A program made the translations under genes and the position numbers. The notes beneath the pieces are model-generated. The model was not told the DNA's origin and made no database searches. It saw only the letters and a list, made by a program, of their open reading frames with translations. This document shows, piece after piece, positions 762 through 23,276 of a stretch of 52,661 nt of DNA (position 1 is its first letter; each line of letters starts with the position of its first letter). Origin of the DNA: Myxococcota bacterium (GTDB lineage Bacteria > Myxococcota_A > Polyangia > Polyangiales > Houyiibacteriaceae); contig JALOQC010000003.1 of assembly GCA_025453555.1 (NCBI GenBank), forward strand, positions 1-52,661. Reading direction: 5' to 3'.

Positions 762-2402
762 TCAGAGCGCGAGGTCCGCGCCGCCGTCGGTGATCACCAC
801 CCATGCGCCCGGCCGCGTGCGCGACGCGAAGACGCCGTGCCACGAGGCGGGCAGCTCCGGGCCCGCGAACCCGAAGACCCAGCGAGCATCCGCCGGGGCC
901 AAGTTGATGCACCCGTGGCTTCGAACGTGACCGAAGCTCGAGTGCCAGAACGCCGCGTGAATCGCGTAGTTCCCTTCGAAGTACATCGTCCAGGGCACGT
1001 CTTCGATGAGGTAGGCCTCGTCGCCCGCGTCGAGGTCGTCCATCGTGGTCGAGACGTGTTTGCTCTGGATGCGAAACACGCCCGTCGGGGTCTCGAAGCC
1101 CGCGCGTCCCGTCGACGTCACGGTCGCGAACAATGGACGATCTCCCTCGTAGGCAACGAGGGTCTGTTCCGCGAGATCGATGTGGATCCAGCGTGCATCC
1201 GCCGGGATCTCGTTCGGGCGCGGGTGACGCTGGGCCACGCGCACCGCGCTCCTCCGTACGACCGCGCCATCGCCCGTGACGAGGTAGCCGTGGTTGCCCC
1301 GCTGGAGCGTGCCGGCGACCACGAAGGGCGTGAGGCGCTCGAACGCGCCGTCCTCGCGAAAACGCTCCGTCGCCGCCTCGCGGCGCAGACGACGCGCGCC
1401 GCCGCGGAACACGAAGCCGATCGGCAGCGGCCAGCTCTCGCCGAGCACCACGCCACGGTGAGCCGGCGGTTCGTTCGGCACGAGCGCGTCGGCGGGGAGG
1501 TAGGCACCACGCACGGTGCGCAGGAACGTACGCGCGCCGTCGCTCTCTTCGCCGTCGAGGCTGACGTAGAAACCCCGCCGCATCCGGAGCCGCACGTAGC
1601 TCGGGAGCTCGACCACCCCGCGCGCCGCGGCGACGAGCGCCGGGTCGACGACCGTCGCTTCCTGCGCCTCGTTCGCGCCGGTTCCGGGTGCGGGCGGAGC
1701 CTCGACCTCGTCGGCGACGTCGGCCGCGACGCCGTCCGCGTCCACCACGACCTCGGGCACACCGGCGTCGCTCGTGACGGCAGGAGGCGACGCGCTCAGC
1801 GCCGCGAACGCCTCGCGGGCACGGCGCTCCTCGTCGATGGTGGGCAGTCGCCAATACTGCGCGACGTCCTCGCGACCCGCGTAGGCGTAAGGGTACGGCA
1901 ACGCGTCTTCGAGCGAAGGTGGCTCGGGCGAGGGCTCGAAGGTTTGCGGCTCGCTGCCGACGAGGAACCCTTCGCCGCGACACACGAACCCCGAGCCGGG
2001 CACCTCGTGCCAGCCGCGTGCGCAGCCCACGCCCGGCACGCGCTCGCTCGCTCGGAAGCGCGCGCCGCGACGTAGGTAGCCCACCACCCCAGCGTCGGTG
2101 CGTGGCTCGGCGCGGACGCGCGCGAGGAAGTGGAAGGTCACGCCGTGCAACGGGTAGCGGGCTTCGAAGGCTTCGCGCGCGGCTTCGGCGACCGCGCGCG
2201 CTTCTTCGACGGGATCGGCGACCGGAGGGGGCTCTGGCGCGCGCTCGCGCGGCCGCGCGTCGGCGTCCACGCGCTCCGCCCGTGGGGCGTGCTCGACGAC
2301 CTCCTCCGTCGCGACCGGGCTCTCGATCGCGGGAGGCTCGACCGTGATCGACTGCCCACACGCGATCGCGAGGCAGCAGAAGACGAAGAGCGCGCGGCGC
2401 AT
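762..2402 (-). CDS. Lipoprotein L,D-transpeptidase (YkuD domain) with SH3-like domain
   Basis: Cross-links or modifies peptidoglycan in the periplasm by attacking an L,D peptide bond through a Cys. The 546-residue product starts with a short hydrophobic segment ending AIAC (Cys15), a probable lipoprotein site with a slightly weak lipobox. A Pro/Glu-rich linker follows, then an SH3-like segment around residues 92-145 (RAEPRTDAGVVGYLRRG) and an Ala/Pro/Val linker. The C-terminal YkuD domain contains HAAFWHSSFGHVRSHGCINL with catalytic Cys498 in SHGC. The ATG at 2402 has GGGGAG at ideal spacing, so I prefer it to the ATG at 2417. It is divergent from the pseudo-ATPase gene. Confidence 0.88.
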   Translation of the reverse strand: MRRALFVFCCLAIACGQSITVEPPAIESPVATEEVVEHAPRAERVDADARPRERAPEPPPVADPVEEARAVAEAAREAFEARYPLHGVTFHFLARVRAEPRTDAGVVGYLRRGARFRASERVPGVGCARGWHEVPGSGFVCRGEGFLVGSEPQTFEPSPEPPSLEDALPYPYAYAGREDVAQYWRLPTIDEERRAREAFAALSASPPAVTSDAGVPEVVVDADGVAADVADEVEAPPAPGTGANEAQEATVVDPALVAAARGVVELPSYVRLRMRRGFYVSLDGEESDGARTFLRTVRGAYLPADALVPNEPPAHRGVVLGESWPLPIGFVFRGGARRLRREAATERFREDGAFERLTPFVVAGTLQRGNHGYLVTGDGAVVRRSAVRVAQRHPRPNEIPADARWIHIDLAEQTLVAYEGDRPLFATVTSTGRAGFETPTGVFRIQSKHVSTTMDDLDAGDEAYLIEDVPWTMYFEGNYAIHAAFWHSSFGHVRSHGCINLAPADARWVFGFAGPELPASWHGVFASRTRPGAWVVITDGGADLAL

Positions 2403-2595: not shown

Positions 2596-4788
2596 GTGCA
2601 CGCGGCCCGTCCCCGTGGAGAGCTCCGCCCCTGTCCGGCCTGCGGTCGGACGGTCGACACGCTCCGCGCGCCCCGCGTGATCTGGCTCGACGACGGCCCA
2701 CGCTTCTTGTGCAGCGAGCCCTGCCGCATCGCGTTCGCGCGCGGCGAGCGTCGCCACGAGCCCGCGCCGATCCGCGAAGAGCGCCTGCGCACCGTCCCCG
2801 AGCGGGTCCGCGACGCCACGCGCCCGAGCCTCGACCTCGCGTCGCGCTCCACCGAGACCGCGAGCTTCGCCTCGCTCGCGGTCGCGCGGGTGCCCTTCCC
2901 CGCCATCGTCCTCGCGCTGGCCGGGCTCGCGTTCGTGCTCGCGTTCCTCTCGCGCCACTTCGTGGCGGCCGCCGCGAGCGCGACCCTGACGACCCTCGTC
3001 GCGCTCTTCGCGCTCTCCCAGGCCACCACGATTCGGCGCGAGGTCGGGCTTCTGCCCTGGCTCATCGGGCCGCTCGGTGCGGTGCTCGCAGCCGTGGCCG
3101 GGCTCGTCGCGCGCGGGGGCACGCCCGACGCGTGGAAGGCCCTCGCGGGCGGTGCGTTGGCCGCGGCCGCGATGATGGTGCGCGCGTGGCTCGACGCCCG
3201 CGCGCGCACCCCCGTCGACGCGCTCGTCCAACGACTCGTCGCGCCGCTGCCCAAACGGCTGCGCGTGCCGGCCGAGGTCGCGGTCGACGACGCGCGCTAC
3301 GAAGAGGTGCCCGTCTCGCGTGTACGCACCGGCGAAGAGGTGCTCGCGGTGGAGGGCGAGGTCGTCGGCGTCGACGGCCTGGTCGACGCGGGCGAGGCGT
3401 GGGTGCTCACGCATCCGGGCGCGCAGACGCCCATCCGTCGTGGCCCGGGCGACCCCGTGCTCGCAGGTGCGCGCGTGACCGAAGGAGCGCTGCGGCTCTT
3501 GGTCACCCGCGTCGGCGACGACCGCGCGCTGGTCCGCGTCGGTCGCTTCGGCTCCGCGCGACGCGACGCGGGAGCGCGGGTGGTGAAGCTCGCGGAGCGC
3601 GCGACGCGGTTCGGTGGCTTCGCGGTCCTCGCGAGCGCGGGGCTCGGCCTCGTGCTCGGCGACGTGTCGAGCCTCGCCGGTCGGCTCTCCGCGGCCGCCG
3701 CGGTGTTGATCGCGGCCCCCCTCCTCGGCGCGCGTCGCAGCGCGGAAGCCCCGCTGGTCGCCGCTGCCGCAGCGGCCGCTTCGCGGGGGATCGTCTTCCC
3801 CGACGGGCGCGTGCTGGAGGATGCAGGTCGCGTCGGCGCGGTCGCGATCGCGACGTCCGGCACCGTGACCGAAGGGCGCCCGGAGGTGATCGAGGTGCAC
3901 GTGGTCGGCGAAGGCGACGAGCCGACGTTGCTCTCGCTCTGCGCCGCCGCCGAAGCGGCGATCGAGCCCCACCCGATCGGGCGCGCGATTCGCCGCTACG
4001 CGCAGCAACATCGCTACCCCACCAAGACCGTACGACGCGCGCAGCTCCACCCCGGTCGCGGGCTCAGCGCGTCGACCGCGGAGGGCGAGACGCTCCTCGT
4101 CGGCAACCGCGCGCTGCTGCTCGATCACGGCGTGAGCGTCGCCCTCGCGGACGCGGAGGCCACGCGCGCGGAAGAGCGTGGGCACACCACCGTGTTCGTC
4201 GGCCTCGGCGGGCGGGTGCGCGCCGTGCTCGCGTTGCGCGACGACGTGCGCGTCGGATCGCGCGCGGCGATGCAGCGCTTCTTCGATCAGCGCCAGGTCG
4301 TGGTCCTCGTCAGCGGCGATCACCGCGCGACGGTGGAGGCGATCGCGAAGCACCTCGACGTCGCGCTCGTGAAGGCCGAGCTGCCGCCGGACGAACGTGG
4401 TGAAGAGGTCGCGCGGCTCGGTAGCGCGACGGGCGTGGTGGCGGCGGTCGGTTGCCTCGGCGACGACGAGTCCATCCTGCAACGGGCCGACGTGCCGGTG
4501 GTGCTCGGGGCGGCCGGCAGCCCGCAGGCCGATCGCGGGGTGGCGCTGACGACCGACGATCTTCGCGACGCCGCCGCCGCCCTCTGGATCGCACAGGCCG
4601 CGCGCCAAGAAGCGGTGCGCGGCGTCGCGCTCTCCGTGGTCGTGGGCGCGCCGATGGTGGTAGGCGCAGCGCTCGGGTGGATCGGCCCCGCGCTCGCCGC
4701 GATCGTCGCGGTGGGTCTCGACGCGTACGTGCTGCCCGCAGGCGGTCGCCTGCTGCGGCGCATCGAGCTGCGCGTGCCCGTGCGTTGA
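2596..4788 (+). CDS. Degenerate P1B-type ATPase-like protein (pseudo-ATPase) with Cys4 N-terminal finger
   Basis: The length (730 aa), membrane segments and order of soluble parts follow heavy-metal P-type ATPases, but the chemistry is gone. An N-terminal Cys4 TRASH/YHS-like finger uses C13/C16 and C39/C43. Hydrophobic helices lie at about 101-140, 153-172 and 182-197, with others at 340-380 and 678-715. The actuator TGES loop reads LTHPGA (271-276). The CPC ion site reads AAP (373-375). DKTGTLTEG reads ATSGTVTEG (419-427), so the phosphorylated Asp and its Lys are Ala and Thr. TGDN reads SGDH (573-576) and GDGxND reads GCLGDD (619-624). The HP motif (H459-P460) survives. The frame is intact, so this looks like a maintained pseudoenzyme and not a decayed gene. 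Function unknown; a metal-sensing or scaffolding role is only inference. Confidence 0.8.
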   Translation: MHAARPRGELRPCPACGRTVDTLRAPRVIWLDDGPRFLCSEPCRIAFARGERRHEPAPIREERLRTVPERVRDATRPSLDLASRSTETASFASLAVARVPFPAIVLALAGLAFVLAFLSRHFVAAAASATLTTLVALFALSQATTIRREVGLLPWLIGPLGAVLAAVAGLVARGGTPDAWKALAGGALAAAAMMVRAWLDARARTPVDALVQRLVAPLPKRLRVPAEVAVDDARYEEVPVSRVRTGEEVLAVEGEVVGVDGLVDAGEAWVLTHPGAQTPIRRGPGDPVLAGARVTEGALRLLVTRVGDDRALVRVGRFGSARRDAGARVVKLAERATRFGGFAVLASAGLGLVLGDVSSLAGRLSAAAAVLIAAPLLGARRSAEAPLVAAAAAAASRGIVFPDGRVLEDAGRVGAVAIATSGTVTEGRPEVIEVHVVGEGDEPTLLSLCAAAEAAIEPHPIGRAIRRYAQQHRYPTKTVRRAQLHPGRGLSASTAEGETLLVGNRALLLDHGVSVALADAEATRAEERGHTTVFVGLGGRVRAVLALRDDVRVGSRAAMQRFFDQRQVVVLVSGDHRATVEAIAKHLDVALVKAELPPDERGEEVARLGSATGVVAAVGCLGDDESILQRADVPVVLGAAGSPQADRGVALTTDDLRDAAAALWIAQAARQEAVRGVALSVVVGAPMVVGAALGWIGPALAAIVAVGLDAYVLPAGGRLLRRIELRVPVR

Positions 4789-4951: not shown

Positions 4952-6412
4952 ATGACCGACGAACGCCGCCGAGAGAAGACGCCGCAGGCCACGTGGGGAG
5001 GCCGCTTCGAAGAGCCGCTCGACGTGGTCGCCCTCCGCTACAGCGCTTCGGTCGACGTCGACAAGCGCCTCGCGCCCGAGGACATCCGTGGCTCGATCGC
5101 GCACGTCCAAATGCTGGCCGCGCGCGGCATCGTCGGGGCCGACGAAGCGGAGAAGATCGCGGCCGAGCTCGGTCGCATCGCGGAGGAGATCGCGCGCGGC
5201 GAGATGGTCTGGGATCCGGCGCGCGAGGACGTGCACATGAACGTCGAGACGGTGCTGACGGAACGCGTCGGCGCGATCGGCGGCAAGCTGCACACCGCGC
5301 GCAGCCGCAACGATCAGGTCGCGACGGACATGCGGCTGTGGACTCGCGAGGCGTGTCTGCGCACCGCCGCGCGCATCGATCGTTTCCTCGCGGTGCTCGC
5401 GGTCCGCGCGGCCGGCACGGTCGACGTGCTGCTCCCCGGCTACACGCACTTGCAGCGCGCCCAGCCGGTGCGGCTCGCGCATCACCTGCTCGCGTGGTCC
5501 GAGATGCTCGACCGCGATCGCGGTCGCCTGCTCGACGCGGCGCGCCGCATGAACGAGTCCCCGCTCGGCTGCGCCGCCCTCGCCGGCACCACCTTCCCGC
5601 TCGATCGCGCGATGACCGCCGCCGCGCTCGGGTTCGATCGCCCGATGCGCAACAGCCTCGACGCGGTCGGCGATCGTGACTTCCTCGTCGAAGCGGTCGC
5701 CGCGCTCGCGAACGCCGCCGTGCACCTCTCGCGCATCAGCGAGGAGCTCGTGCTCTGGTCGACCCAGGAGTTCGGCTTCGTCACCATGAGCGACGCCTAC
5801 ACCACGGGCTCCTCGATCATGCCGCAGAAGAAGAACCCCGACATGGCCGAGCTCGCGCGCGGCAAGACGGGGCGCGTGGTGGGCGATCTCGTGAACCTGC
5901 TCGTGATGCTCAAGGGCCTGCCCCTCGCCTACAACCGCGACATGCAGGAGGACAAGGCCCCCGTCTTCGACGCCTTCGACACCGTCGACGACACCCTCGA
6001 CGTGCTCACCGGCGCGATCGCGACCGCGCGCTTTCGACCCGAGCGCATGCGCGCCGCGCTGCGCGACGGCTTCGCGGACGCGACCGAGGTCGCCGACTGG
6101 CTCGCGGCGCGTGGGGTCCCCTTTCGCGAGGCGCACCACGTCACGGGCCGGCTCGTCGGTCGCTGCGTCGCCGCGGGCAAGGCGCTCTCGGAGCTCACGC
6201 TCGACGAGCTGCGCGAGGAGCACCCCCTCTTCGACGAGAGCCTCTACGCCGCGCTCGACTTCGAGACCGCGGTCGAGCGCCGCGATCTTCCGGGCGGACC
6301 GGCGCGCCGTCAGGTTCACGCGGCGATCGAGGAGCTGCGCGAGCGCCTCCACGAACGGGCGGTCGACGTCGACGCCGTCGCGCGCGCGGCGGGCGCGGAG
6401 GCGCGGTCGTGA
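4952..6412 (+). CDS. argH: Argininosuccinate lyase
   Basis: Last step of arginine synthesis: splits argininosuccinate into arginine and fumarate in the cytoplasm. The 486-residue length fits the family. It has the N-terminal WGGRF block (15-19), SRNDQVATD (117-125), GYTHLQRAQPVR around 162-173 with the conserved His165, and the fumarase/aspartase signature GSSIMPQKKNP (285-295) carrying the catalytic Ser loop. The ATG at 4952 gives the canonical N terminus; the frame extends upstream but is not conserved-looking. The stop overlaps the lysA start by four bases. Confidence 0.97.
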   Translation: MTDERRREKTPQATWGGRFEEPLDVVALRYSASVDVDKRLAPEDIRGSIAHVQMLAARGIVGADEAEKIAAELGRIAEEIARGEMVWDPAREDVHMNVETVLTERVGAIGGKLHTARSRNDQVATDMRLWTREACLRTAARIDRFLAVLAVRAAGTVDVLLPGYTHLQRAQPVRLAHHLLAWSEMLDRDRGRLLDAARRMNESPLGCAALAGTTFPLDRAMTAAALGFDRPMRNSLDAVGDRDFLVEAVAALANAAVHLSRISEELVLWSTQEFGFVTMSDAYTTGSSIMPQKKNPDMAELARGKTGRVVGDLVNLLVMLKGLPLAYNRDMQEDKAPVFDAFDTVDDTLDVLTGAIATARFRPERMRAALRDGFADATEVADWLAARGVPFREAHHVTGRLVGRCVAAGKALSELTLDELREEHPLFDESLYAALDFETAVERRDLPGGPARRQVHAAIEELRERLHERAVDVDAVARAAGAEARS

Positions 6413-7713
6413 GCGGCGAACGGATGGTGGTCGCGCAGGGCGCAGTGCCCGCGAGCGACGTTTTCGTCGTGCGCGACGGCGCGCTCTTCTGCGAGGACGT
6501 GGCGGTCGAGCGCATCGCCGCCGAGGTCGGCACGCCGGCGTGGATCTACTCCGCCGCCCGGATCGATCGCGCGTACCGGACGATCGCGGAGGCGATGGCG
6601 CGCGTGAGCGATCGCGTGTTGATCGCCTACGCGGTGAAGGCCAACGGCAACCTCGCGATCCTGCGGCGCCTTGCCGCGCTCGGCTGCGGCGCGGACATCG
6701 TCAGTGCGGGCGAGCTCGCGCGCGCGCTTCACGCAGGCATTCCACCCGAGCGCATCGTGTTCTCCGGGGTCGGCAAGACGCGCGAGGAGATCGCCTATGC
6801 GCTTCGCGAGCGCGTGCGCGCGATCCACGTCGAGAGCGAGAGCGAGCTGCGTGCGGTGGCCGAAGAAGCGGCGAAGCTCGGGGTGCAGGCACCGGTCGCA
6901 CTTCGCGTGAACCCCAACGTCGACGCGGGCACACACCCCTACATCGCGACGGGCCTGCACGACACGAAGTTCGGCCTCGAGCTCGATCGCGCGCGCGTCG
7001 CGGTGCGCTTCGCGATCGAGCACCCGCACCTCGCGCTCCACGGCGTGAGCTGCCACATCGGATCTCAGCTCGACTCGCCTGCGCCGCTCGAAGAAGCGGT
7101 GACCCTGCTCGGTCGCTTCGCGCTCGAATGCCGCGAGGCCGGCGCGCCGATCACCTCGATCGACGTCGGCGGCGGTTGGCCGCTCGGCTACGGACACGAG
7201 GCGCGCCCCTACCCCGCGGCGCACGAGTTCGCCGATGCGATCCGACGTGGGCTGGAGGCGAGCCGCGCGACCGAGCTCGAAGTCGTCACCGAGCCGGGAC
7301 GCGCGTTGGTCGCCGACGCGGCGATCCTGCTCACCCGCGCGCTCTACCGAAAGTCACAAGGCGGCAAGCGCTTCGTGATCGTCGACTCCGGCATCACGGA
7401 GCTCATCCGGCCCGCGCTCTACGGGGCGTTCCACGCGATCGCGCCGGTGCAGACGCGCGAGGGCGCGCTCACGCCGGCCGACGTCGTCGGACCGATCTGC
7501 GAGAGCGGCGACTTCTTCGCACACGGCCGAATGCTCCCGCCGATCGAAGAAGGCGATTTGATCGCGATCTACGGCGCTGGGGCGTACGGCCGCGAGATGT
7601 CGAGCACCTACAACGCGCGGCCACTCGCACCGGAGGTGCTGGTCGAAGGCGCGAGCTTCCGCGTGGTGCGTCGTCGGCAGACCGTCGAGGAGCTCTGGCG
7701 TCTCGAAGAGTGA
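6409..7713 (+). CDS. lysA: Diaminopimelate decarboxylase
   Basis: PLP enzyme that makes L-lysine from meso-diaminopimelate. It begins at GTG 6409 inside the argH stop (GTGA overlap), with GGAGG seven bases upstream, so it is translationally coupled. Visible features are YAVKAN with the PLP lysine (K77), HIGSQL, the GGGWPLG phosphate-binding turn, EPGRALVADA, CESGDFF with catalytic Cys364 and YGAGAYG near the C terminus. Its 434 residues match the family. The argH-lysA pairing links arginine and lysine synthesis in one transcript. Confidence 0.97.
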   Translation: MSGERMVVAQGAVPASDVFVVRDGALFCEDVAVERIAAEVGTPAWIYSAARIDRAYRTIAEAMARVSDRVLIAYAVKANGNLAILRRLAALGCGADIVSAGELARALHAGIPPERIVFSGVGKTREEIAYALRERVRAIHVESESELRAVAEEAAKLGVQAPVALRVNPNVDAGTHPYIATGLHDTKFGLELDRARVAVRFAIEHPHLALHGVSCHIGSQLDSPAPLEEAVTLLGRFALECREAGAPITSIDVGGGWPLGYGHEARPYPAAHEFADAIRRGLEASRATELEVVTEPGRALVADAAILLTRALYRKSQGGKRFVIVDSGITELIRPALYGAFHAIAPVQTREGALTPADVVGPICESGDFFAHGRMLPPIEEGDLIAIYGAGAYGREMSSTYNARPLAPEVLVEGASFRVVRRRQTVEELWRLEE

Positions 7714-8397: not shown

Positions 8398-11300
8398 TCA
8401 GGAGAAGCGCCCGAGCACGCCGAGCAGCTCCCCGATGCGCTCCGCGGTCCGCGGATCGCCACGATCGGTCGCGGTGCCGAGCAGCGCCTCGAGCCCCTCG
8501 CGGGCCTGCGCGCACACGCCCCGCAGGCTCTCGACGTCACGCTCGAACGCCCCCGCGCGGGAGGTCGCCTCGCGCAGCGCGGCCTCACGCTCACGGAGCG
8601 AACGTTCGAGCCGCGCGAGCGCCTCGTCCGCCGCCGGTCGCCGCTTCAGCTCGCCGACCTGCTCCTCCGCCAGACCGCGCGCTTGGCGTTCTTGCGCCAG
8701 CTCGTCGTGCAGCCGCGACACCCGCTCTTGCAGCTCGAGCAGCTCGCGCCGCACGTCCTCGCCGTCGCCCGCCGGGCCACCTTCCGCGAGCCGCCGCTCC
8801 AGCGCGCGCAAGCGATCGTCGCGCTCCTCGAGCTGCGCGGTCAGCGAACGCAGCAGCGTGTCCTTGTCGTCGATCTCGCGCTCGAGCCGCACGACCCGAC
8901 CGTCCTCGCCCTCCGGCGCTTCGAGACCGACCTCCGTGATCTCGGCCCGCCGACGACCCGCGCCCTCTTCGACGCGCCAACCGTCCAGCACGCGCCGCAG
9001 GTCGGTGAGGCCCACGCGCAGCTCGGCGAGCGCGCCATCCTTCGCGCCCATCCGCGCCGCGATCTCGCTCCTCACCGCCGCTGCGGCGGCGTCGGCGCGC
9101 TCACGCGCGATGCGCTCCGCAGCCTCCACCGCGCGCGCGAGCTCGCTGCGGAGACGTTCGAGATCTTCGTGGGCGATCCGTCGTTCGGCGTCTGCGGCTT
9201 CCGCACGCTCCTGCCAGCGCGCGCCCTCTTCGATCGACGCGCGCGAGGTCTCTTCCAGGCGCGCGAGCTTCTCGCGCAGCACGTCGACCTCGGCCGCGCG
9301 CCGCTCCGCGTCCCGCAACGCCTCGGCTGCGTCGGTGAGTCGCTTCTCCGCGCGCTCCTTCGCGTCCACTGCGCTCGACGCGTCGACCACCGCCTCACGC
9401 AGCCGCACCGCCTCGGCGCGCGCCCGAGCGAGCTTCTCGTCGAGCATCTTCGCGGTCTGCTCTTCCTCCGCGAGATCCATCTGGAGTCGCGTGAGGAGCG
9501 CGTCGCGACCGGCGAGCTTCTGTCCGAGATCCGCCGCGCGTTGCTCCGCCCGCTCCTTCGCCTCCGCGAGATCGACCGAGCGCAGCTCGAACGCGTCGCT
9601 CTGCGCGCGGAGGCTGGTGATCTCGTCCCGAAGCCGATCGAGCTCCTCGGGCGCGAAGGCGGGTGCGCGCGCCGTCAACGCGGTCGCGAGCGCTGCTTCG
9701 CGATCCCGGAGGCGCATGCGCAACCCTTCGCGCTCACCGCGCAACGACGCGAGCTCTTCGCGCACCCGCGCCAGCTCGCGCTCGATCGCTTCGTCGGTCC
9801 CGGTCGCCTTCGAAGGGACCGGCACCACCTCCGAGGCCAACATCGCGATGCGGTGCTCATACCCGCGGCGGAGCCCTTCGACGCGCGTCTCGAAGGCCGA
9901 GAGCTGCGCGGCCAATCGCAGGGTCTCGGCGCGCGCGCGATCACGCTCGTCCTCCAGGCGCTCCGCCAGCTCGCGTGCCGCCGTGAGCTCGCTGGTGAGC
10001 TGACCCGCCTCCACGCGATCGCGTTCGGCTTCGAGGCGATCGATCAGATCGCGCGCCGCGACGAGCTGACCCGAGAGCTCTCCGACGCGCGCCGAGAGGT
10101 TCTTCTCCGACGCCTCGAGCTCGGCGAGCCGCGGGTCGGTCTCGGTGCTGGGAGCAGCAGCCGGCGCGCGAGCGGCCCCCCGCGCCTGAATCCACGCCAG
10201 CTCGAGCTGCTCGGAGAGCTCGCCGACCTTCGCTTCGAGCGCGCGATGCGCCTCCGCGCGATCCTGACGCTCGAGCTCCAACATCCGCACGCGCGCGGCG
10301 GCCGTCTCGTGCAGCTCCGCGAGCTCCGCGGCCCGCGCGCGCAGATCGCGCACCGCACCGTCGAGCTCCGCTTCGCGGGCACGCGTCGTCGCGAGCTCCT
10401 CTTCGCGCGCGAGGAGCGCGACGCGCAGCTCGTCGGTCGCGAGCTCCGCTTCGGTGCGCGCAGCTTCCGCGTCGAGCCACTTCGCGCCGCCGCCGCGTCG
10501 CCCGAGCTGATGCTCGCGCAGCTCCTCCGTCAGGTCGCGGACGAGCAACGCACGATGATCGAGCTCGACCTCCAGCTCCCGAACCCGCGCGCCGCGCTCG
10601 CGCAGCCGCTCTTCGATCGCCGCGATCTCCTGCGCCGAATCGGACTCTGCCGACCCGATCTCGCGCAGCGCCGCCCTCGCCTCGGACAGCTCGCTCTCCG
10701 TCCCGACGAGCCGCCCTTGGAGCTGCTCGAGCCGGCTCTCCGCGCGCTCGAGCGCCTCCCGCAGCGCGTCGGCCTCGCGCGAGCGCCCGACGAGCGCCTC
10801 CTCCAAGATCGCCGTCTTCTCGGTCTTCTCTTCGCGCGGCGCCTCGAGCTCGACCGCGGTGGTGAGCACCGACGCCGGGAGCTCGCTCGGGAGCTGCACC
10901 ACGAGGTAGGGCTCGAAGGCCGGCAGCTCGTCCGCGCCGAGCGCCCAGATGCGATCGATGCCGCTCTCGCCCGCCAGCGTTCCGTCGACCACCACCGCGT
11001 CCGCGCTCTCCGAAGAGAGATCCGCGAGCGCGACGCCGCGGAAGGTTGCTTGGCCGAGCACACGCACGGTCCCGCACGCGTCGGCGAGCGCGTCTCGAAG
11101 CACGTCGTAGCGACCGTCGTCCGCGAGCGTGCCCGCGACGACCACGCCCTCGTCACCCACCGCGCGCGCGAGCTCACGCAGGCGAAGCGTGAGCTCGTCG
11201 AGCACGGAGACCTCGGTGACGATCGCGAGATCGAAGGTGCCGGGCGGCAGATCGATGGGTCCGGGTCGGAAGGTCGAGACACGCACGACGCCACCACGGC

Positions 11301-11478
11301 GACGACGCCCACGGCCGGTGGTGTCGAGCACGCGAACCGACTCGGCGGTCGCCGCGAGCTGATCGGGCGCGCCGCTCGACGCGTCGCCGATCCACAGCAC
11401 CCGGCGGCCGGCGGCGAAGGGCGCGAGCCAGACGGCGAGTGAGAGTTCCGCCGGGCGTTGGGTGAGGCTCTGCGTCAT
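8398..11478 (-). CDS. Large coiled-coil protein with degenerate methyltransferase-like N-terminal domain
   Basis: 1026 residues. Residues 1 to about 200 look like a Rossmann methyltransferase: a strand-loop RRVLWIGDASSGAP in the place of motif I, FDLAIVTEV in the place of motif IV, then GVVVAGTL. The glycine signature (GxGxG) is missing, so S-adenosylmethionine binding is doubtful. From about residue 215 to the end the protein is almost unbroken heptad repeat rich in Glu, Arg, Leu and Ala, with one Pro/Ala break (ARAPAAAPSTETD). The layout, a small globular head plus a very long cytoplasmic coiled coil, recalls the myxobacterial polarity proteins FrzS and AglZ, which carry a pseudo-receiver instead. 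The following gene is a receiver. No signal peptide or membrane helix is visible. Function not known. Confidence 0.8.
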   Translation of the reverse strand: MTQSLTQRPAELSLAVWLAPFAAGRRVLWIGDASSGAPDQLAATAESVRVLDTTGRGRRRRGGVVRVSTFRPGPIDLPPGTFDLAIVTEVSVLDELTLRLRELARAVGDEGVVVAGTLADDGRYDVLRDALADACGTVRVLGQATFRGVALADLSSESADAVVVDGTLAGESGIDRIWALGADELPAFEPYLVVQLPSELPASVLTTAVELEAPREEKTEKTAILEEALVGRSREADALREALERAESRLEQLQGRLVGTESELSEARAALREIGSAESDSAQEIAAIEERLRERGARVRELEVELDHRALLVRDLTEELREHQLGRRGGGAKWLDAEAARTEAELATDELRVALLAREEELATTRAREAELDGAVRDLRARAAELAELHETAAARVRMLELERQDRAEAHRALEAKVGELSEQLELAWIQARGAARAPAAAPSTETDPRLAELEASEKNLSARVGELSGQLVAARDLIDRLEAERDRVEAGQLTSELTAARELAERLEDERDRARAETLRLAAQLSAFETRVEGLRRGYEHRIAMLASEVVPVPSKATGTDEAIERELARVREELASLRGEREGLRMRLRDREAALATALTARAPAFAPEELDRLRDEITSLRAQSDAFELRSVDLAEAKERAEQRAADLGQKLAGRDALLTRLQMDLAEEEQTAKMLDEKLARARAEAVRLREAVVDASSAVDAKERAEKRLTDAAEALRDAERRAAEVDVLREKLARLEETSRASIEEGARWQERAEAADAERRIAHEDLERLRSELARAVEAAERIARERADAAAAAVRSEIAARMGAKDGALAELRVGLTDLRRVLDGWRVEEGAGRRRAEITEVGLEAPEGEDGRVVRLEREIDDKDTLLRSLTAQLEERDDRLRALERRLAEGGPAGDGEDVRRELLELQERVSRLHDELAQERQARGLAEEQVGELKRRPAADEALARLERSLREREAALREATSRAGAFERDVESLRGVCAQAREGLEALLGTATDRGDPRTAERIGELLGVLGRFS

Positions 11479-11964
11479 CGGTGGGCTCGACGCCCGAGGC
11501 GTCCATGGGACCGCTCGGGTGGAAGATTCGAAGGCTCGACGCCCACCCGCGCGGCGCTCGGCGACGCACGGCTGCGCGACAGGACCGACCGTCGCGCGGT
11601 CGGGGAAATCGACCCGCTTTATAGTCGCCGGCCCGCGGGAGGGTCAACGCGAATTCCTCCGCGATTTCGATGGTTCGGTGGGCCTGACGGTGGCGCTCCG
11701 AGCCGCGGGTCGCACACCTCGTCGGGTTGCGGAGCGAGCTCGTGTGCTCGCGCTCGCTGCGTGGTCGTACGGCGCACACCGCTGGGTCCCCCATGGGCGA
11801 CGACCCGGCCGGGGACGCCATCTCGCAAACGCCCCTCCTCCTCTCCCGCCTCGCGCGACTCCCACGCGTCGCCCGACGTCCGCTCCCTCGCGCCGCACGA
11901 CGATCGAGTCCTCGAACCACGCGTTGCCGCGGCCTTCGCGTCTGCGCCGCGCTATCGTGCGCGC
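11479..11964. other. 486-bp intergenic stretch between divergent genes
   Basis: It holds the minus-strand promoter at 11618-11647 and the short TATCGT element before GTG 11965. Open frames here are Arg-rich and biased like non-coding shadow frames, so I see no gene. Confidence 0.6.
11618..11647 (-). promoter_or_regulatory. Sigma70-type promoter for the coiled-coil/receiver genes
   Basis: Read on the minus strand: TTGACC (11642-11647), 18-bp spacer, TATAAA (11618-11623), each a 5/6 match. It predicts a transcript start near 11611 and a leader of about 130 bases before ATG 11478. It is the best consensus promoter in the window. Confidence 0.6.
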
Positions 11965-14949
11965 GTGGTCGACGCCGAGCGCAACCTTCGACGCGCGCTG
12001 GGACGCCTCCGACGCCGCGGTTGGCTCGTGCACGGCCTGCGTGGCGTGGGGCTCTCGCTCGGCGCGGGCTCCGTCTGCTTCACGCTCGCCGCGTTCCTGG
12101 TCGGCCCCGTGGTGCCGACCGTCGCGGCCGTGGCGGCTTGGCTCGCCGTCGGCGTCGCGTTCACGCTCGCGCTCGCCTTCGCGCTCCGCCCCGCGCGCGC
12201 GCTGCTCGGCGCGGGCGCGGCGCGTCTTCTCGAGGGTCGCGATCCCGCGCTCGCGTCGATGGCGCGCAGCGCGATCGAGCTGAGCGCGACACCCTCCGGC
12301 GCGCCCGAGCTGATCGCGGCACACCTTCGGGAGGTCGAGTCGCGCATCACGAAGATCCCGCCCGCGACCGTCACCCCGTGGGCCCAGCTCCGCAGCCCGA
12401 TCGTGCTCGGCGCCGTGCTGTCCGGAGTCACGGCGCTCGCGCTCACCCTCGCCAGCGATCGCGCGACCGCGGGCGCGTTCGCGTTGCTGCATCCCGGCGC
12501 GCGCGACGCGGGAGGTGTGCACCTCGCGGACGTGGTCACCGACGTCCGCGCCGAGCTCGCGTTCCCCATCTACCTCGCGCGCGATGCCGAGACCTCCGAC
12601 GAGCCGACCACGCTGACCGCGCCGCGCGGCACCACCGTGCACTGGTCGGCGCGCGCGCGGCTCCCCCTCTCGCGAGCCACCCTCGACGTCGCGGGAACCC
12701 GCGTGCCGCTCGAGCTCGACGGCGATCGCTGGAGCGCGCGCTTCGTCGTGCGCGAGAGCGGCGCGCTCCGCGTCGACGTGCGCGACGACGAAGGCCGCCC
12801 CCTCCGCGACGCGCTCGCGCGCTCGGTGCTCGCGGTGGTCGACCTCACGCCCGAGATCGCCTGGACCGAGCCCGCCCTCGAGCAGCCGGTCGCGCTCGAC
12901 GAGCCGGTGGTTCAAGGGTTCGTCGCGGTCGACGATCATCGCCTCTCCGAGCTGTGGCTCGTGATCGACGCGGGCGGCGGCGCGATCGATCGCCGCTCCC
13001 TCGCGCACCCCGACGGACCGAGCCATCCCGGGGTGGTGCGACTCTCTGCGGTCGAGCTCGACGCGCGCCCGGGAGACACGATCTCGTACTGGATCGAGGC
13101 GAGCGATCTCGACGACGTCTCCGGTCCCAACGTCGGGCGCTCGGAGACGCGCGTGCTGCGGGTCGCGTCCGCGTCGACCGAACGTGCGGAGGCGCTCGCG
13201 GATCTCGAAGGGGCGCGCGACGCGGGCCTCGACGCGCTCGCGGACCGACTGGAGCTGCCGGTCGCGGTCCCGCCGAGCGCCGAGCCGACGACCGAAGGCG
13301 CACCCGACGAAGCGGCGCGCGCGCGTCATCGGGCGACGAGCGCGTCGTCCACCGCGTTCGCAGAACGATTGGCCGCCCTCGGTCGCGAGCCCCTGGAAGG
13401 CTTCGACGCCGGCGTGGTGGATCCTTCGGTGCTCTCGGCGATGGCACGCCGTCTCGGGCGCGCGCTCGCGGACGAGGCGCGCGCGTACGGGCCGCGTCTG
13501 GGGCCCGAGGCGGCGCGTCGCTCGGACGACGACGCGCTCGTCACGATGCTCGAGGATCAGACGCTCTTCCTCGACGACTTGCTGGCGCGCGCGCGCATCG
13601 ACGACGCCGCGAGCATCGCGCGCGAGCTCGACGCGCTTCGTCGCGAGATGACCTCGTTGCTCGCGGAGCTGCGGCGCACCGACTCGCCCGAGGCGCGCGC
13701 GGCATTGCTCGCCGCGCTTCGTCGCGCCCAAGCCCGCGCCGCCGAGCTCGCTCAGCGCATCGCCGCGATGGGCAACGACGTGCCGAGCGAGTTCCTCAAC
13801 ACCGACGCCCTCCCGCAGCGCGAGACGCAGGACGCGCTCCGCGCGATGCAGGAAGCGATCGAGAACGACGACCTCGACGCGGCCGAGCGCGCGCTCGCGG
13901 ATCTCGAACGCCAGATCGAGGCGATGGCCGGTGCGCTCTCGGGAGCGGAGGGCGAGCTCGCGGACGCGCGCTTCGGGCCGCGAGAGCGCGCGATGGCAGA
14001 GGCGATGGACGCGCTCGCGGGCCTGGAGACCGAGCAGCGCGGGCTCGCGGAGCGGAGCGAAGGTTTGCGCCGGGACGCCGCGGAGCGCGCGCTCGAAGCG
14101 GCAGGCACCGCGGCCGCCGAAGCTGCGCGCGGGCTCGCCGAGCGCGCTGGCCGTGCACGCGACGCGCTCGACGCGATCCCCGAGGACGCGCTCGGACCCT
14201 ACGACCGCGAGATGCTCGATCGCGTGCGCCAGCGTCTGACCGACGTCGAGGACACCCTGCGCGCGGGAGACCTCGGCGAAGCGCGCCGCATGGCTGCCGA
14301 AGCGCACGCCGACGCGACGGGTCTCGCGCGCGACCTCGAGCTCTCTGCGCTGATGTTCGCCGGGCGCGACGGGCAGGTCGCGACGGCCGCTCGAAACGCG
14401 CAGCGCGCCTCGCAGAGCACCCGTGAGCTGAGCGAGCGCCTCGAGGACGTGCTCCCGCGGCTCGGAGAGCATCTCGCGGACGAAGAGCGCGAGCAGCTCC
14501 GCGGTGACGCGCCGCGCCAGACCGAGACCGGCGAAGCCGCGCAGCGGCTCGCGGAGGCTTTCCGCGCCGAGCCGGACGGACAGCCGCTCTCTCCCGAGAG
14601 CGCGGACGCGGTCGAGGAAGCACGCACCGCGATGGACCGCGCGCGGCGCGCGCTCGAGCAGGGCGAGCCCGTGGAGGCGACGCGCGCACAGCAAGAAGCG
14701 GCGCGGCGGCTCACCGAGCTGCGCGAGGAGCTCGAGCGTCAGTCCGACCCTCCGCCGGACGGTGGTGGCGGCGGAGGGGGCGGCGCGGACGGTCGCCCCT
14801 CGAACGGACGTCGCGTCGAGATCCCCGGCCAGAGCGACGGATCCGAGCTCGCGGATCGGCGACGCCGGGTGCTCGACGGGATGCGCCGCGCCGCCCCGCG
14901 TGGCTACGAGGAGAGCGTGCGTCGCTACTACGAGGAGCTGCTCCGATGA
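11965..14949 (+). CDS. DUF4175-like membrane protein with long helical C-terminal region
   Basis: 994 residues. Two adjacent membrane helices (about 24-46 and 52-74) and a third near 142-160 anchor an extracytoplasmic part. That part contains beta-rich segments (TTVHWSARARLP, DDHRLSELWLVIDAGG, GDTISYWIEASD) and then several hundred residues of Ala/Glu/Arg helical repeats, a poly-Gly linker (GGGGGGGG) and a C-terminal YEESVRRYYEELLR. This is the architecture of DUF4175 proteins that accompany MoxR/VWA gene sets. The biochemical role is unknown. I chose GTG 11965 because TATCGT lies exactly six bases before it and the membrane helices start soon after; no ATG is better. The stop overlaps the next gene (ATGA). 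Confidence 0.75.
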   Translation: MVDAERNLRRALGRLRRRGWLVHGLRGVGLSLGAGSVCFTLAAFLVGPVVPTVAAVAAWLAVGVAFTLALAFALRPARALLGAGAARLLEGRDPALASMARSAIELSATPSGAPELIAAHLREVESRITKIPPATVTPWAQLRSPIVLGAVLSGVTALALTLASDRATAGAFALLHPGARDAGGVHLADVVTDVRAELAFPIYLARDAETSDEPTTLTAPRGTTVHWSARARLPLSRATLDVAGTRVPLELDGDRWSARFVVRESGALRVDVRDDEGRPLRDALARSVLAVVDLTPEIAWTEPALEQPVALDEPVVQGFVAVDDHRLSELWLVIDAGGGAIDRRSLAHPDGPSHPGVVRLSAVELDARPGDTISYWIEASDLDDVSGPNVGRSETRVLRVASASTERAEALADLEGARDAGLDALADRLELPVAVPPSAEPTTEGAPDEAARARHRATSASSTAFAERLAALGREPLEGFDAGVVDPSVLSAMARRLGRALADEARAYGPRLGPEAARRSDDDALVTMLEDQTLFLDDLLARARIDDAASIARELDALRREMTSLLAELRRTDSPEARAALLAALRRAQARAAELAQRIAAMGNDVPSEFLNTDALPQRETQDALRAMQEAIENDDLDAAERALADLERQIEAMAGALSGAEGELADARFGPRERAMAEAMDALAGLETEQRGLAERSEGLRRDAAERALEAAGTAAAEAARGLAERAGRARDALDAIPEDALGPYDREMLDRVRQRLTDVEDTLRAGDLGEARRMAAEAHADATGLARDLELSALMFAGRDGQVATAARNAQRASQSTRELSERLEDVLPRLGEHLADEEREQLRGDAPRQTETGEAAQRLAEAFRAEPDGQPLSPESADAVEEARTAMDRARRALEQGEPVEATRAQQEAARRLTELREELERQSDPPPDGGGGGGGGADGRPSNGRRVEIPGQSDGSELADRRRRVLDGMRRAAPRGYEESVRRYYEELLR

Positions 14950-20251: not shown

Positions 20252-21175
20252 ATGATCGAGGCCACGCGCTCCCCGCTCGATCCCGAGGTCGCGCGACGCG
20301 CGGCGGCCCTCTCGTACCGGGCGCGCAGCGCGGTCGAGGGCCTCCTCAGCGGCATGCACCGCAGCCCGCACCGCGGACCGAGCGTGGTCTTCGTCGAGCA
20401 CCGCGACTACCGACCCGGCGACGAGCCGCGCCTGCTCGATTGGCGCGCGTTCGCCCGCACCGATCGCCACGTGGTCAAGCGCTTCGAGCAGGAGACGCAG
20501 CTACGCGCGTGGCTGCTCCTGGATCGCAGCGCGTCGATGGCGTGGGGCGGCTTCGACGCCGACGCCCGCGCCGACGAGTCCACCCGCAAGGACGCGCACG
20601 GCGCGACCCTCCTCGCTGCGTTCGCGTACTTGTTGTTGCGACAGGGCGACGCGGCGGGCGGCGGTGGCTTCGACGTCGCGCTCCACGACGATCTGCTGCC
20701 CCCGGGCTCGCGGCCCGCGCACTTCGAGCAGCTCCTCGCCCGCCTCGCGCGACCAGCGGCCGAGGACGCGCGCACCGATCTCGCGCAATCGCTCCGCGCA
20801 GGCGTGGAGCGCGCGGGTCGCCGAGGTGTGGTCGCGATCGCGAGCGACCTGCTCGATCGCCGTGCGGAGGTCTTCGCCCCGCTCGCGCAGCTCGTCGCGC
20901 GTGGACACGAGGTGATCGTCTTCCACGTGCTCCATCGCGACGAGCTCGAGCTGCCGTTGCGCGGCGCGGCGCGCTTCGTCGGGCTCGAAGGCGAAGCGCC
21001 GCTCGAAGCGGATCTCGACGTCGTCCGCGAAGACTACCTCCGCGAGGTCCGTGCGTTCGTCGACGAAGCGCGCCAGTCGTGCGCCGCGGCGGGGGCGCGG
21101 TACCTGCTCGCGCCCACCGACGTGCCGGTCGAGCGCACGCTCGCGGAGCTGGTGGGGCGTCGGAGGCGCCGATGA
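20252..21175 (+). CDS. DUF58 protein with VWA-like MIDAS site
   Basis: 307 residues. The DUF58 hallmark EHRDYRPGDEPRLLDWRAFARTD spans about 49-71, and LLLDRSASM gives a metal-dependent adhesion motif (D91, S93, S95). No membrane helix is visible. It is the usual partner of MoxR and likely its client or adaptor. ATG 20252 has GGAG at good spacing. The 24-base gap holds a duplicated TGACGGAGTC and a five-codon mini-frame (ATG 20238) that ends at the true start. Confidence 0.9.
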   Translation: MIEATRSPLDPEVARRAAALSYRARSAVEGLLSGMHRSPHRGPSVVFVEHRDYRPGDEPRLLDWRAFARTDRHVVKRFEQETQLRAWLLLDRSASMAWGGFDADARADESTRKDAHGATLLAAFAYLLLRQGDAAGGGGFDVALHDDLLPPGSRPAHFEQLLARLARPAAEDARTDLAQSLRAGVERAGRRGVVAIASDLLDRRAEVFAPLAQLVARGHEVIVFHVLHRDELELPLRGAARFVGLEGEAPLEADLDVVREDYLREVRAFVDEARQSCAAAGARYLLAPTDVPVERTLAELVGRRRRR

Positions 21176-21305
21176 GCTCGGCTGGGTTCGTCCGATCCCG
21201 TGGCCTCGTCGCGGCACGCCTCGTCGGAGTTCGCGGTTCGATCGCACGCCAGCGCTCGATCGACCCGAGCGCCGATTCGGCGCGACGTCGGAACGGGAGG
21301 TCGTG

Positions 21306-23249
21306 ATGGGCTTCACCCTCCCCCTCGCGTTGCTCGGCGCGCTCGCGGTCGCGGCGCCCATCCTGATCCACCTGCTGCGACAGCGCGACGTTCCCACGCG
21401 CTCGCTGCCCACCGTCGCGCTCCTGCGCCGCGCGACCGCGGAGAGCCGCCGCAAGCTCCGCCTCCGCGATCGGCTGCTCCTCCTCCTGCGTGCGCTCGCG
21501 GTGCTGGCGTTCGCGATCGGCGCCTCGGGCCCCTGGCTCGCGTCGTCGCGCGCGTTCGACGACGGGCGGCGCGCCTCGATCGCGATCGTGCTCGACGACT
21601 CGATGAGCATGGCGAGGCGCGAGAGCGGTGAGCGCCTCTTCGCGACCGCGATCGCGCGCGCGAACGATCAGCTCGACGCGCTCCCGCCGGACTCCGAGGT
21701 CGCGCTCGTGCTCGCGGGCGCGCCCGCGCGGCTCGTCGTTCCGCGCACTCGTGAGCTCACCCGCGTCCGACGCGCGCTCGCTGCGCTCCCGGACACCACC
21801 GCGCGCGGCACCGCGCTCTCGGAGGCGCTCGAGCTCGCGCGCGCGAGCCTCTCGGGGGCCGCGCAGCCGCGTCGCGTCATCGTGTTCTCCGACTTCGCTG
21901 CGCACGCGCGCTTGACCGAGCTCCCGCCGACGCGCGGGATCGAGTGGGCCCTCGAGCCCCTCGCCCCCTCCGCGCCCGCCAACGCCGCGATCCTCGAAGC
22001 CCACGCCGCACCCGATCCCACGACGCCCGGACGCCTCTCGATCGAGGTCGTGCTTCGCGCGCCCGAGGGGCGGCACGCGCTCGAGGTCGTGCACGACGAC
22101 GTCGTCCTCGGCCGCACGGAGGTGGTCGTCGAGCCCGGCGCGGAGGCGGGTGCGTTGGTGCACCCCGCGCGCGCCACCGTGCACGTCACGCCACCGCCCG
22201 TGCCGGACGCCACGGTGCGGCTGGTGATCGAGGACGCGCTCGATCTGGACGACGCGCGCGGCGTCTTGCTTCGACCGAGCGCGGCCCTGCGCGCGCTCCT
22301 CGTCGACGGTGAGCCGCATCCGTCCCGCGATCGCGACGAGGTCGGCTTCCTCGCGCGCGCGATCGAGGCGACGCCTCACGACGACGGGGGCATCGCGTTC
22401 CGCGTCGTCGATCCCGACGCGTTCGCGCCGAGCGCGCTCGAAGAGGTCGACGTGGTGGTGCTCGCGAACGTCGCGACCCTGCGACCGCGCGACGCCGAGA
22501 GCCTGCGTCGCTTCGTGGAGGCAGGCGGCGGACTCCTCGTCGCGATGGGCGAGCGCGTGGAGCCACGGGTCCTCCGTGGGCAGCTCCCGTGGTTGCCGGC
22601 GAGCCCACGCGCTGCACGCGCGCTCCCCGAGCTCACCACGTTGCGGAGCGTCGGTCGCTTGCCCGCGCTCGACGCGCGTGTGTCTCGAGTCGTCGTGCTC
22701 GAGCCCTCGCTCGGCGCGGAGGTGCTCGTCGAGACCGCAGGGGCCGACGAAGGCGCGCCCGTGCTGGTGCGCAGCGCCTTCGGCGAAGGACGCGTCGCGG
22801 TGCTCGCGGTCCCCGTCGACGACGCGTGGTCCGAGCTGCCCTACTCGCCCGGCTATCTGCCGCTGGTGAGCGAGCTGCTCCGCGATCTCGCGGCCGCGCG
22901 GCGCGCTCCGAGCGCGGTCCTCTCCGCGGGTGCCTCGATCGAGCTCGCGCCACGGCACCTCGTGCGCGCGCCGGACGGATCGATTCACGAGCCCGTCGAG
23001 GGTCGCTTCGACGACACCGCCGCACCGGGCGTCTACCGCGTGCTCGACGGCGACGAGGTGAAGAGCAGCTTCGTCGTCGCCTCGCCCGCGAGCGAGTCGG
23101 ATCTCACGCCCGGCAGTCCGCCCGAGGCCACCGCCGGGGACGACACGAACGGCGCACGCAGCGAGCGACGGCGACGCCCGATCGACCCGTGGTTCTTCCT
23201 CCTCGGCGGCTTGTGCCTGCTGGGTGAAGGCTGGCTCCGCGCGCGCTGA
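21306..23249 (+). CDS. BatA-like membrane protein with VWA and glutamine-amidotransferase-like domains
   Basis: 647 residues. It begins with the BatA N-terminal signature (GFTLPLALLGALAVAAPILI, HLLRQR) and a second membrane helix at about 56-75. A VWA domain follows with the MIDAS DDSMS (97-101). A class-I amidotransferase-like region is seen around 380-410 (VDVVVLANVATL, FVEAGGGLLVAMG) without an obvious catalytic Cys. A last hydrophobic segment (PWFFLLGGLCLLGEGW) is near the C terminus. ATG 21306 has GGGAGG five bases upstream. It acts at the inner membrane with MoxR and DUF58; likely role is envelope stress or complex assembly, by family analogy. Confidence 0.88.
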   Translation: MGFTLPLALLGALAVAAPILIHLLRQRDVPTRSLPTVALLRRATAESRRKLRLRDRLLLLLRALAVLAFAIGASGPWLASSRAFDDGRRASIAIVLDDSMSMARRESGERLFATAIARANDQLDALPPDSEVALVLAGAPARLVVPRTRELTRVRRALAALPDTTARGTALSEALELARASLSGAAQPRRVIVFSDFAAHARLTELPPTRGIEWALEPLAPSAPANAAILEAHAAPDPTTPGRLSIEVVLRAPEGRHALEVVHDDVVLGRTEVVVEPGAEAGALVHPARATVHVTPPPVPDATVRLVIEDALDLDDARGVLLRPSAALRALLVDGEPHPSRDRDEVGFLARAIEATPHDDGGIAFRVVDPDAFAPSALEEVDVVVLANVATLRPRDAESLRRFVEAGGGLLVAMGERVEPRVLRGQLPWLPASPRAARALPELTTLRSVGRLPALDARVSRVVVLEPSLGAEVLVETAGADEGAPVLVRSAFGEGRVAVLAVPVDDAWSELPYSPGYLPLVSELLRDLAAARRAPSAVLSAGASIELAPRHLVRAPDGSIHEPVEGRFDDTAAPGVYRVLDGDEVKSSFVVASPASESDLTPGSPPEATAGDDTNGARSERRRRPIDPWFFLLGGLCLLGEGWLRAR

Positions 23250-23276
23250 CGGTCTCGAGCGACACACGCCCGCTCG

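Follow-up and report, generated by a model that had tools for sequence, protein, structure and literature searches.

An order-wide family of P1B-type ATPase pseudoenzymes in myxobacteria

The locus and the encoded protein

The window (the whole stretch of 52,661 nucleotides analysed here, from a Myxococcota bacterium) contains near its start a gene that resembles a heavy-metal pump, flanked by genes of cell-wall and amino-acid metabolism. Its features are as follows.

762..2402, minus strand: L,D-transpeptidase (YkuD) gene, a recurrent neighbour
2596..4788, plus strand: pseudo-P1B-ATPase gene, 730 codons, GTG start (2596), TGA stop (4788), frame uninterrupted
2620..2751, plus strand: likely TRASH/L24e-type Cys4 finger (residues 9-52; C13, C16, C39, C43), by Cys conservation, profile search and predicted structure
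2887..3240, plus strand: membrane helices 1-4 (residues about 98-215), by AF2 secondary structure
3241..3576, plus strand: A (actuator) domain, degenerate (PF00122)
3406-3423, plus strand: TGE position, reading LTHPGA (residues 271-276, with A276 at the place of Glu), by motif reading
3712..3726, plus strand: M4 position of the CPC metal site, reading A-A-P-L-L (residues 373-377), by alignment
3850..3864, plus strand: phosphorylation loop, ATSGT in place of DKTGT (residues 419-423), by motif reading and alignment
3877..4245, plus strand: N (nucleotide) domain, keeping E453, H459-P460, G487/G489, G503 and R505
4312..4323, plus strand: HAD motif II, SGDH (residues 573-576), partly retained, by alignment
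4396..4398, plus strand: R601, Arg replacing the HAD motif III Lys, as in most members
4450..4467, plus strand: GCLGDD (residues 619-624) replacing GDGxND, first Asp lost and last Asp (D624) kept, by alignment
4561..4776, plus strand: membrane helices 7-8 (residues about 656-727), by AF2 secondary structure
4952..6412, plus strand: argH, argininosuccinate lyase, a conserved downstream neighbour
6409..7713, plus strand: lysA, diaminopimelate decarboxylase, a conserved downstream neighbour

The first-pass annotation, made from sequence alone, described an intact P1B-type frame of 730 codons at 2596-4788, and this description held. Pfam matches above cut-off cover the E1-E2_ATPase domain (residues 229-374) and the HAD Hydrolase domain (422-588), and the NCBIfam heavy-metal P-type ATPase model aligns with residues 175-709 (E 8e-64), albeit far under its curated cut-off (216 vs 346 bits). 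In sequence, archaeal CopA proteins are its closest relatives of known structure (3j08, E 3e-45). The AlphaFold (AF2) model (mean pLDDT 90.2, pTM 0.82) has the CopA fold, its P and N domains match those of AfCopA with bound AMPPCP (3a1e: Z 26.4, rmsd 1.9 over 266 residues), and structure alignments give 26–35% identity to AfCopA. Pfam, the AF2 model and structure comparison agree that the A, P, N and membrane domains of the P-type fold are present, with eight membrane helices, all of them predicted. Thus, the window protein shares with P1B-type (CopA-like) heavy-metal ATPases the whole fold, the order of domains and the nucleotide pocket of the N domain, but in place of the HMA domains of CopA-like pumps its N-terminus carries a TRASH finger. 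The same genome also encodes intact P1B pumps with the DKTGT motif (L044 and L045, at G000:C120:5083-6525 and G000:C250:5997-7739), therefore the pseudo-pump is no replacement for them.

The N-terminal finger has the ligand spacing C-x2-C-x22-C-x3-C, which meets the four-ligand TRASH/YHS spacing (x2, x22, x3). Its cysteines 13, 16, 39 and 43 are kept in 110–112 of the 112–113 members of the family that have residues at these positions. A profile of the first 60 residues ranked ribosomal protein L24e first among all solved structures in the PDB (E 0.01), and a model built for the finger alone (pLDDT 88.5) again returned L24e as the top match, both in Foldseek (E 0.12, probability 0.98) and in the VIA structure comparison (Z 5.3, rmsd 2.0 over 45). 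The Pfam cut-offs of the TRASH clan were not reached (best matches DUF7576, E 3e-4 to 5e-3, and TRASH_HVO_1752_C, E 0.14); we therefore call the finger TRASH-type and do not file it as a member of a Pfam TRASH family. L24e, a metal-bound TRASH domain of known structure, is discussed in PMC4626032, where the YHS/TRASH finger of a Mycobacterium phlei adenylyl cyclase (D178/C181/C204/C208) is reported as a probable copper sensor; the ligand spacing of that finger is identical to the one found here. Each score is modest when taken alone, but because the three methods agree and the spacing is identical, we regard the TRASH/L24e assignment, which rests on profiles and a predicted structure, as likely. 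The pseudo-pump finger thus resembles known TRASH/YHS domains (L24e and the M. phlei cyclase finger) in Cys spacing and predicted fold; unlike them, it is fused to a dead pump.

Lost catalytic motifs and the retained nucleotide pocket

Motif counts were taken from an automatic alignment in which 119 non-redundant family members (<95% identity) were set beside 19 intact P1B pumps; such alignments are poor for the most divergent sequences (L039, L191, L234-L236). The phosphorylation Asp is present in none of the 119 members and in all 19 comparators. The Glu of TGE appears in a single aligned row of the family, and the CPC or CPx metal site in M4 is absent from it. CopA-like pumps have the phosphorylation Asp, the TGE Glu, CPC and an intact GDGxND, all of which the pseudo-pump is missing. 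In the window protein the CPC position reads AAP or PLL, depending on a shift of one or two residues in the alignment; Cys is absent either way.

These changes are patterned rather than random. At position 419, the place of the Asp, Cys is the most common residue (73/119); the window protein has Ala there, and other members have Ser, Leu, Asn, Val, Pro or Gln. The Thr of DKTGT (position 421) is replaced by Arg or His in 108 of the 119 members, the first Asp of GDGxND (position 620) likewise in 96, and the Lys of HAD motif III by Arg in 106, so that the former site of Mg and Asp-phosphate is basic in most members. At two of these places the window protein departs from the trend, with Ser421 and Cys620. 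Of GDGxND, 113/119 members retain the last Asp (D624).

The first-pass readings LTHPGA, ATSGT, SGDH and GCLGDD all held, as did AAP for CPC with the possible shift mentioned above. The loss of the catalytic motifs was confirmed, with the qualification that D624 is kept; the suggestion that orthologues might share the Ala-Thr at 419-420 and the AAP failed: what they have in common is the absence of the Asp together with, mostly, Arg or His at 421 and 620. Given these losses it is nearly certain that members of the family cannot pump by the known mechanism, although this is an inference made without assay data on ATP hydrolysis or metal transport.

The N domain presents a different picture. Residues E453, P460, G487, G489 and G503 agree with the pocket of AfCopA and rank with the best-conserved sites in the family, contrary to the first-pass statement that only the HP motif of this domain was kept. 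Together with H459 they correspond to AfCopA E457, H462, P463, G490, G492 and G501, a numbering that agrees with the sequence alignment. Among the 119 members, E453 is found in 89, H459 in 80, P460 in 104, G487 in 113, G489 in 116 and G503 in all, and R505, two residues past G503, is likewise invariant (119/119). The pocket motifs (E-HP, GxG and VGxR) are thus largely present, which suggests, but does not prove, nucleotide binding; the inference comes from pocket conservation and no binding data are available. H459 is missing in about a third of the members and E453 in a quarter, hence nucleotide binding is perhaps not universal in the family.

Distribution, single origin and selection

A search of 58 relatives yielded about 35 full-length orthologues with 40–70% identity. 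A scan of named genomes gave 41 loci, nearly all from Myxococcota/Myxococcales, Sandaracinaceae, Deltaproteobacteria or MAGs, and a profile search of the order found family members in 145 of 184 genomes. Carriers probably include myxobacteria that can be grown in culture, putatively assigned to Sorangium cellulosum So0157-2, Minicystis rosea and Sandaracinus amylolyticus. HMM searches of the class and the phylum separated the family, mostly above 300 bits, from intact pumps, below about 290, and revealed no members at family-level scores outside this order. Four phylum hits at 285–289 bits, with query ranges starting at 94 or later and no finger, have the score and range of intact pumps and were counted as such on these grounds alone, their motifs unread. 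Within the order, weaker and strongly diverged members occur in f2 and f11.

We found no orthologues with intact DKTGT or CPC; each DKTGT-bearing hit that was read (e.g. L231) proved to be a separate, distant intact pump. In a maximum-likelihood tree a single branch divides the family from 18 intact comparators (SH-aLRT 99), thus one loss is enough. This is a quick tree with long branches (L039, L042), and the details inside the family are uncertain. We read this as a single origin of the family, from a P1B pump at the base of one myxobacterial order.

The overall dN/dS, taken from pairs whose synonymous sites are not saturated, is 0.12–0.23. When 12 pairs are split into segments, the two from the P domain have the lowest value (0.066), followed by the N domain (0.10), the A domain (0.14) and the finger (0.20), and membrane helices 1-4 have the highest (0.28). 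The former catalytic P domain is the most constrained part, so this is not a protein in decay. The first-pass annotation had proposed a true pseudoenzyme family, to be refuted by orthologues with intact DKTGT or CPC or by relaxed selection. No such orthologues were found, the low dN/dS speaks against relaxation, and the proposal is upheld: catalytic residues are gone across the orthologues and selection is maintained.

Some members have been reduced further. Two members, L129/L035 and L130/L036, encode proteins shorter by about 120 residues and lack the A-domain match, which fits a protein family without a phosphorylation cycle. A strongly diverged f2 member that adjoins argH-lysA (L191:7803-9935, minus strand) has no Pfam family match and apparently no A domain, and keeps the Cys4 finger and the N-domain GRG/LGNR; it could represent an intermediate step of reduction.

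Gene neighbourhood and possible role

Synteny differs between the two halves of the order: in one the arrangement is L,D-transpeptidase, pseudo-pump, argH, lysA, in the other argD and pseudo-pump, with or without a Fur-type gene. In f1, f3, f4, f8, f9 and f10 (and f2) the pseudo-pump gene is next to argH-lysA, frequently with the L,D-transpeptidase on its far side, and in one genus the gap between pseudo-pump and argH is only 6–35 bases. The order of the row is constant, but individual genes in it have flipped orientation in some genomes, one of them that of the window. The L,D-transpeptidase of the window (762-2402, minus strand) has an SH3-like domain, and its gene adjoins the pseudo-pump in several families despite the inversions. 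Loci of f12 usually have argD upstream and often a Fur family or Ser/Thr kinase gene downstream; a Fur-type gene adjoins the pseudo-pump in many f12 and f7 loci. In f5 the neighbour is frr or an L,D-transpeptidase-like gene. In genome G439, a single contig of 14.78 Mb, argD, the pseudo-pump (L218:4764-7259, plus strand) and a convergent Fur-family gene lie about 10 kb from the contig start.

A functional argument from the argH-lysA operon was considered and rejected, as the pair occurs without the pseudo-pump gene in other orders; the pair therefore predates the insertion, and the link is perhaps historical. It is striking that each half of the order has a different arginine gene beside the pseudo-pump, but this may be due to chance or history, and the neighbours could be inherited synteny instead of partners. 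Copper has been reported to inhibit L,D-transpeptidases (Peters et al. 2018, by title, cited in PMC12729407), which would be one conceivable, and speculative, rationale for that neighbourhood.

The interpretation we favour, with moderate confidence, is that the family represents membrane-anchored regulators responsive to metal and/or nucleotide, pseudoenzymes that arose a single time from a P1B pump; what they bind, what they act on and to what effect are inferences, and there are no binding data. On this reading, a single event at the base of the order cost a P1B-type ATPase its phosphorylation cycle and its transmembrane metal site, and selection has retained the protein since. The cytosolic finger is predicted to bind a transition metal, with zinc or copper the likely candidates, and the N domain to bind nucleotide, the phosphate end of which could be held by the basic (Arg/His) P-domain site of most members without Mg and without hydrolysis; that the window protein has neither Arg nor His at 421 and 620 counts against the model. 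The state of metal and nucleotide would set the position of the headpiece, and a partner protein would read it; candidates are the products of neighbouring genes, i.e. the L,D-transpeptidase, the arginine-pathway enzymes or, in one half of the order, the Fur-type regulator. The first-pass idea of a metal or nucleotide sensor or regulator is consistent with the TRASH-type finger and the pocket, and remains undemonstrated.

A bolder version, which we think less likely than not, holds that this is the first pseudoenzyme family among P-type ATPases, in which an ion pump became a membrane receptor once, at the root of the order: the TRASH finger would read metal, and the mostly basic P/N headpiece would read nucleotide or phosphate without Mg or hydrolysis, tied to arginine/lysine metabolism or to cell-wall crosslinking.

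Among the alternatives, the one that survives best, though we consider it unlikely, is a scaffold or assembly factor, in which the pump fold only serves to hold cell-wall or amino-acid enzymes at the membrane, with a structural finger and no sensing. It is supported by the synteny with the L,D-transpeptidase, argH, lysA and argD genes and by the fact that TRASH fingers may be purely structural, as in L24e, which counts against the sensing reading. On the other hand, a mere platform would not need near-invariant G487, G489 and G503 or a P domain that is the most constrained part of the protein. Very little speaks for a passive conduit, i.e. an ATP-independent channel or facilitator for metal or another solute: the eight membrane helices are all predicted, but the metal ligands of M4 are lost, helices 1-4 evolve fastest, and no strongly conserved polar residues lie inside the membrane helices, save Pro, Gly and Arg near their ends. 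Equally improbable is that the protein has kept enzymatic activity by means of a relocated or substituted nucleophile. The frequent Cys at position 419 and the widely kept last Asp of GDGxND could be taken in its favour, but the window protein has Ala at position 419 and other members have any of several further residues, TGE is lost along with the first Asp of GDGxND, and some members are missing the A domain. A decaying pseudogene or an assembly error, to which only the motif loss itself and the draft state of the window genome could point, is all but excluded by about 120 homologous Asp-less frames in independent assemblies, including single-contig genomes, and by dN/dS well below 1; sequencing error and relaxed selection are ruled out by the same order-wide conservation and dN/dS.

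Few enzymes have been studied as much as P-type ATPases. Pseudoenzymes in general (PMC10211241, PMC5106787) show a conserved fold, lost catalytic motifs and selection, as this family does, and TRASH fingers are also already known; the open-licence literature that we searched contained no description of pseudoenzyme families among P-type ATPases, and within that scope such a family is apparently unreported. A recent review (PMC10654040) asks whether P1B pumps double as receptors and puts forward a "transceptor" idea, in which a terminal metal-binding domain is the proposed receptor on the pump. The pseudo-pump likewise has a putative terminal metal-binding domain, but is without transport, so that the candidate receptor alone is left. 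With regard to the favoured regulator interpretation, a large, old and conserved lineage that has finger and pocket without pumping would mean that the roles of pump and receptor have been split in nature. In practice, automated annotation could label the pseudo-pump as a heavy-metal pump, a warning for counts of metal-resistance genes.

Further along the window, two frames on the minus strand (11644-14694, 1016 aa, and 20475-23267, 930 aa) have no Pfam match. Another at 8398-11478, also on the minus strand, encodes 1026 aa rich in Glu, Ala and Arg and is coiled-coil-like; its opposite strand is open too, over 1045 codons, a typical shadow frame of GC-rich DNA.
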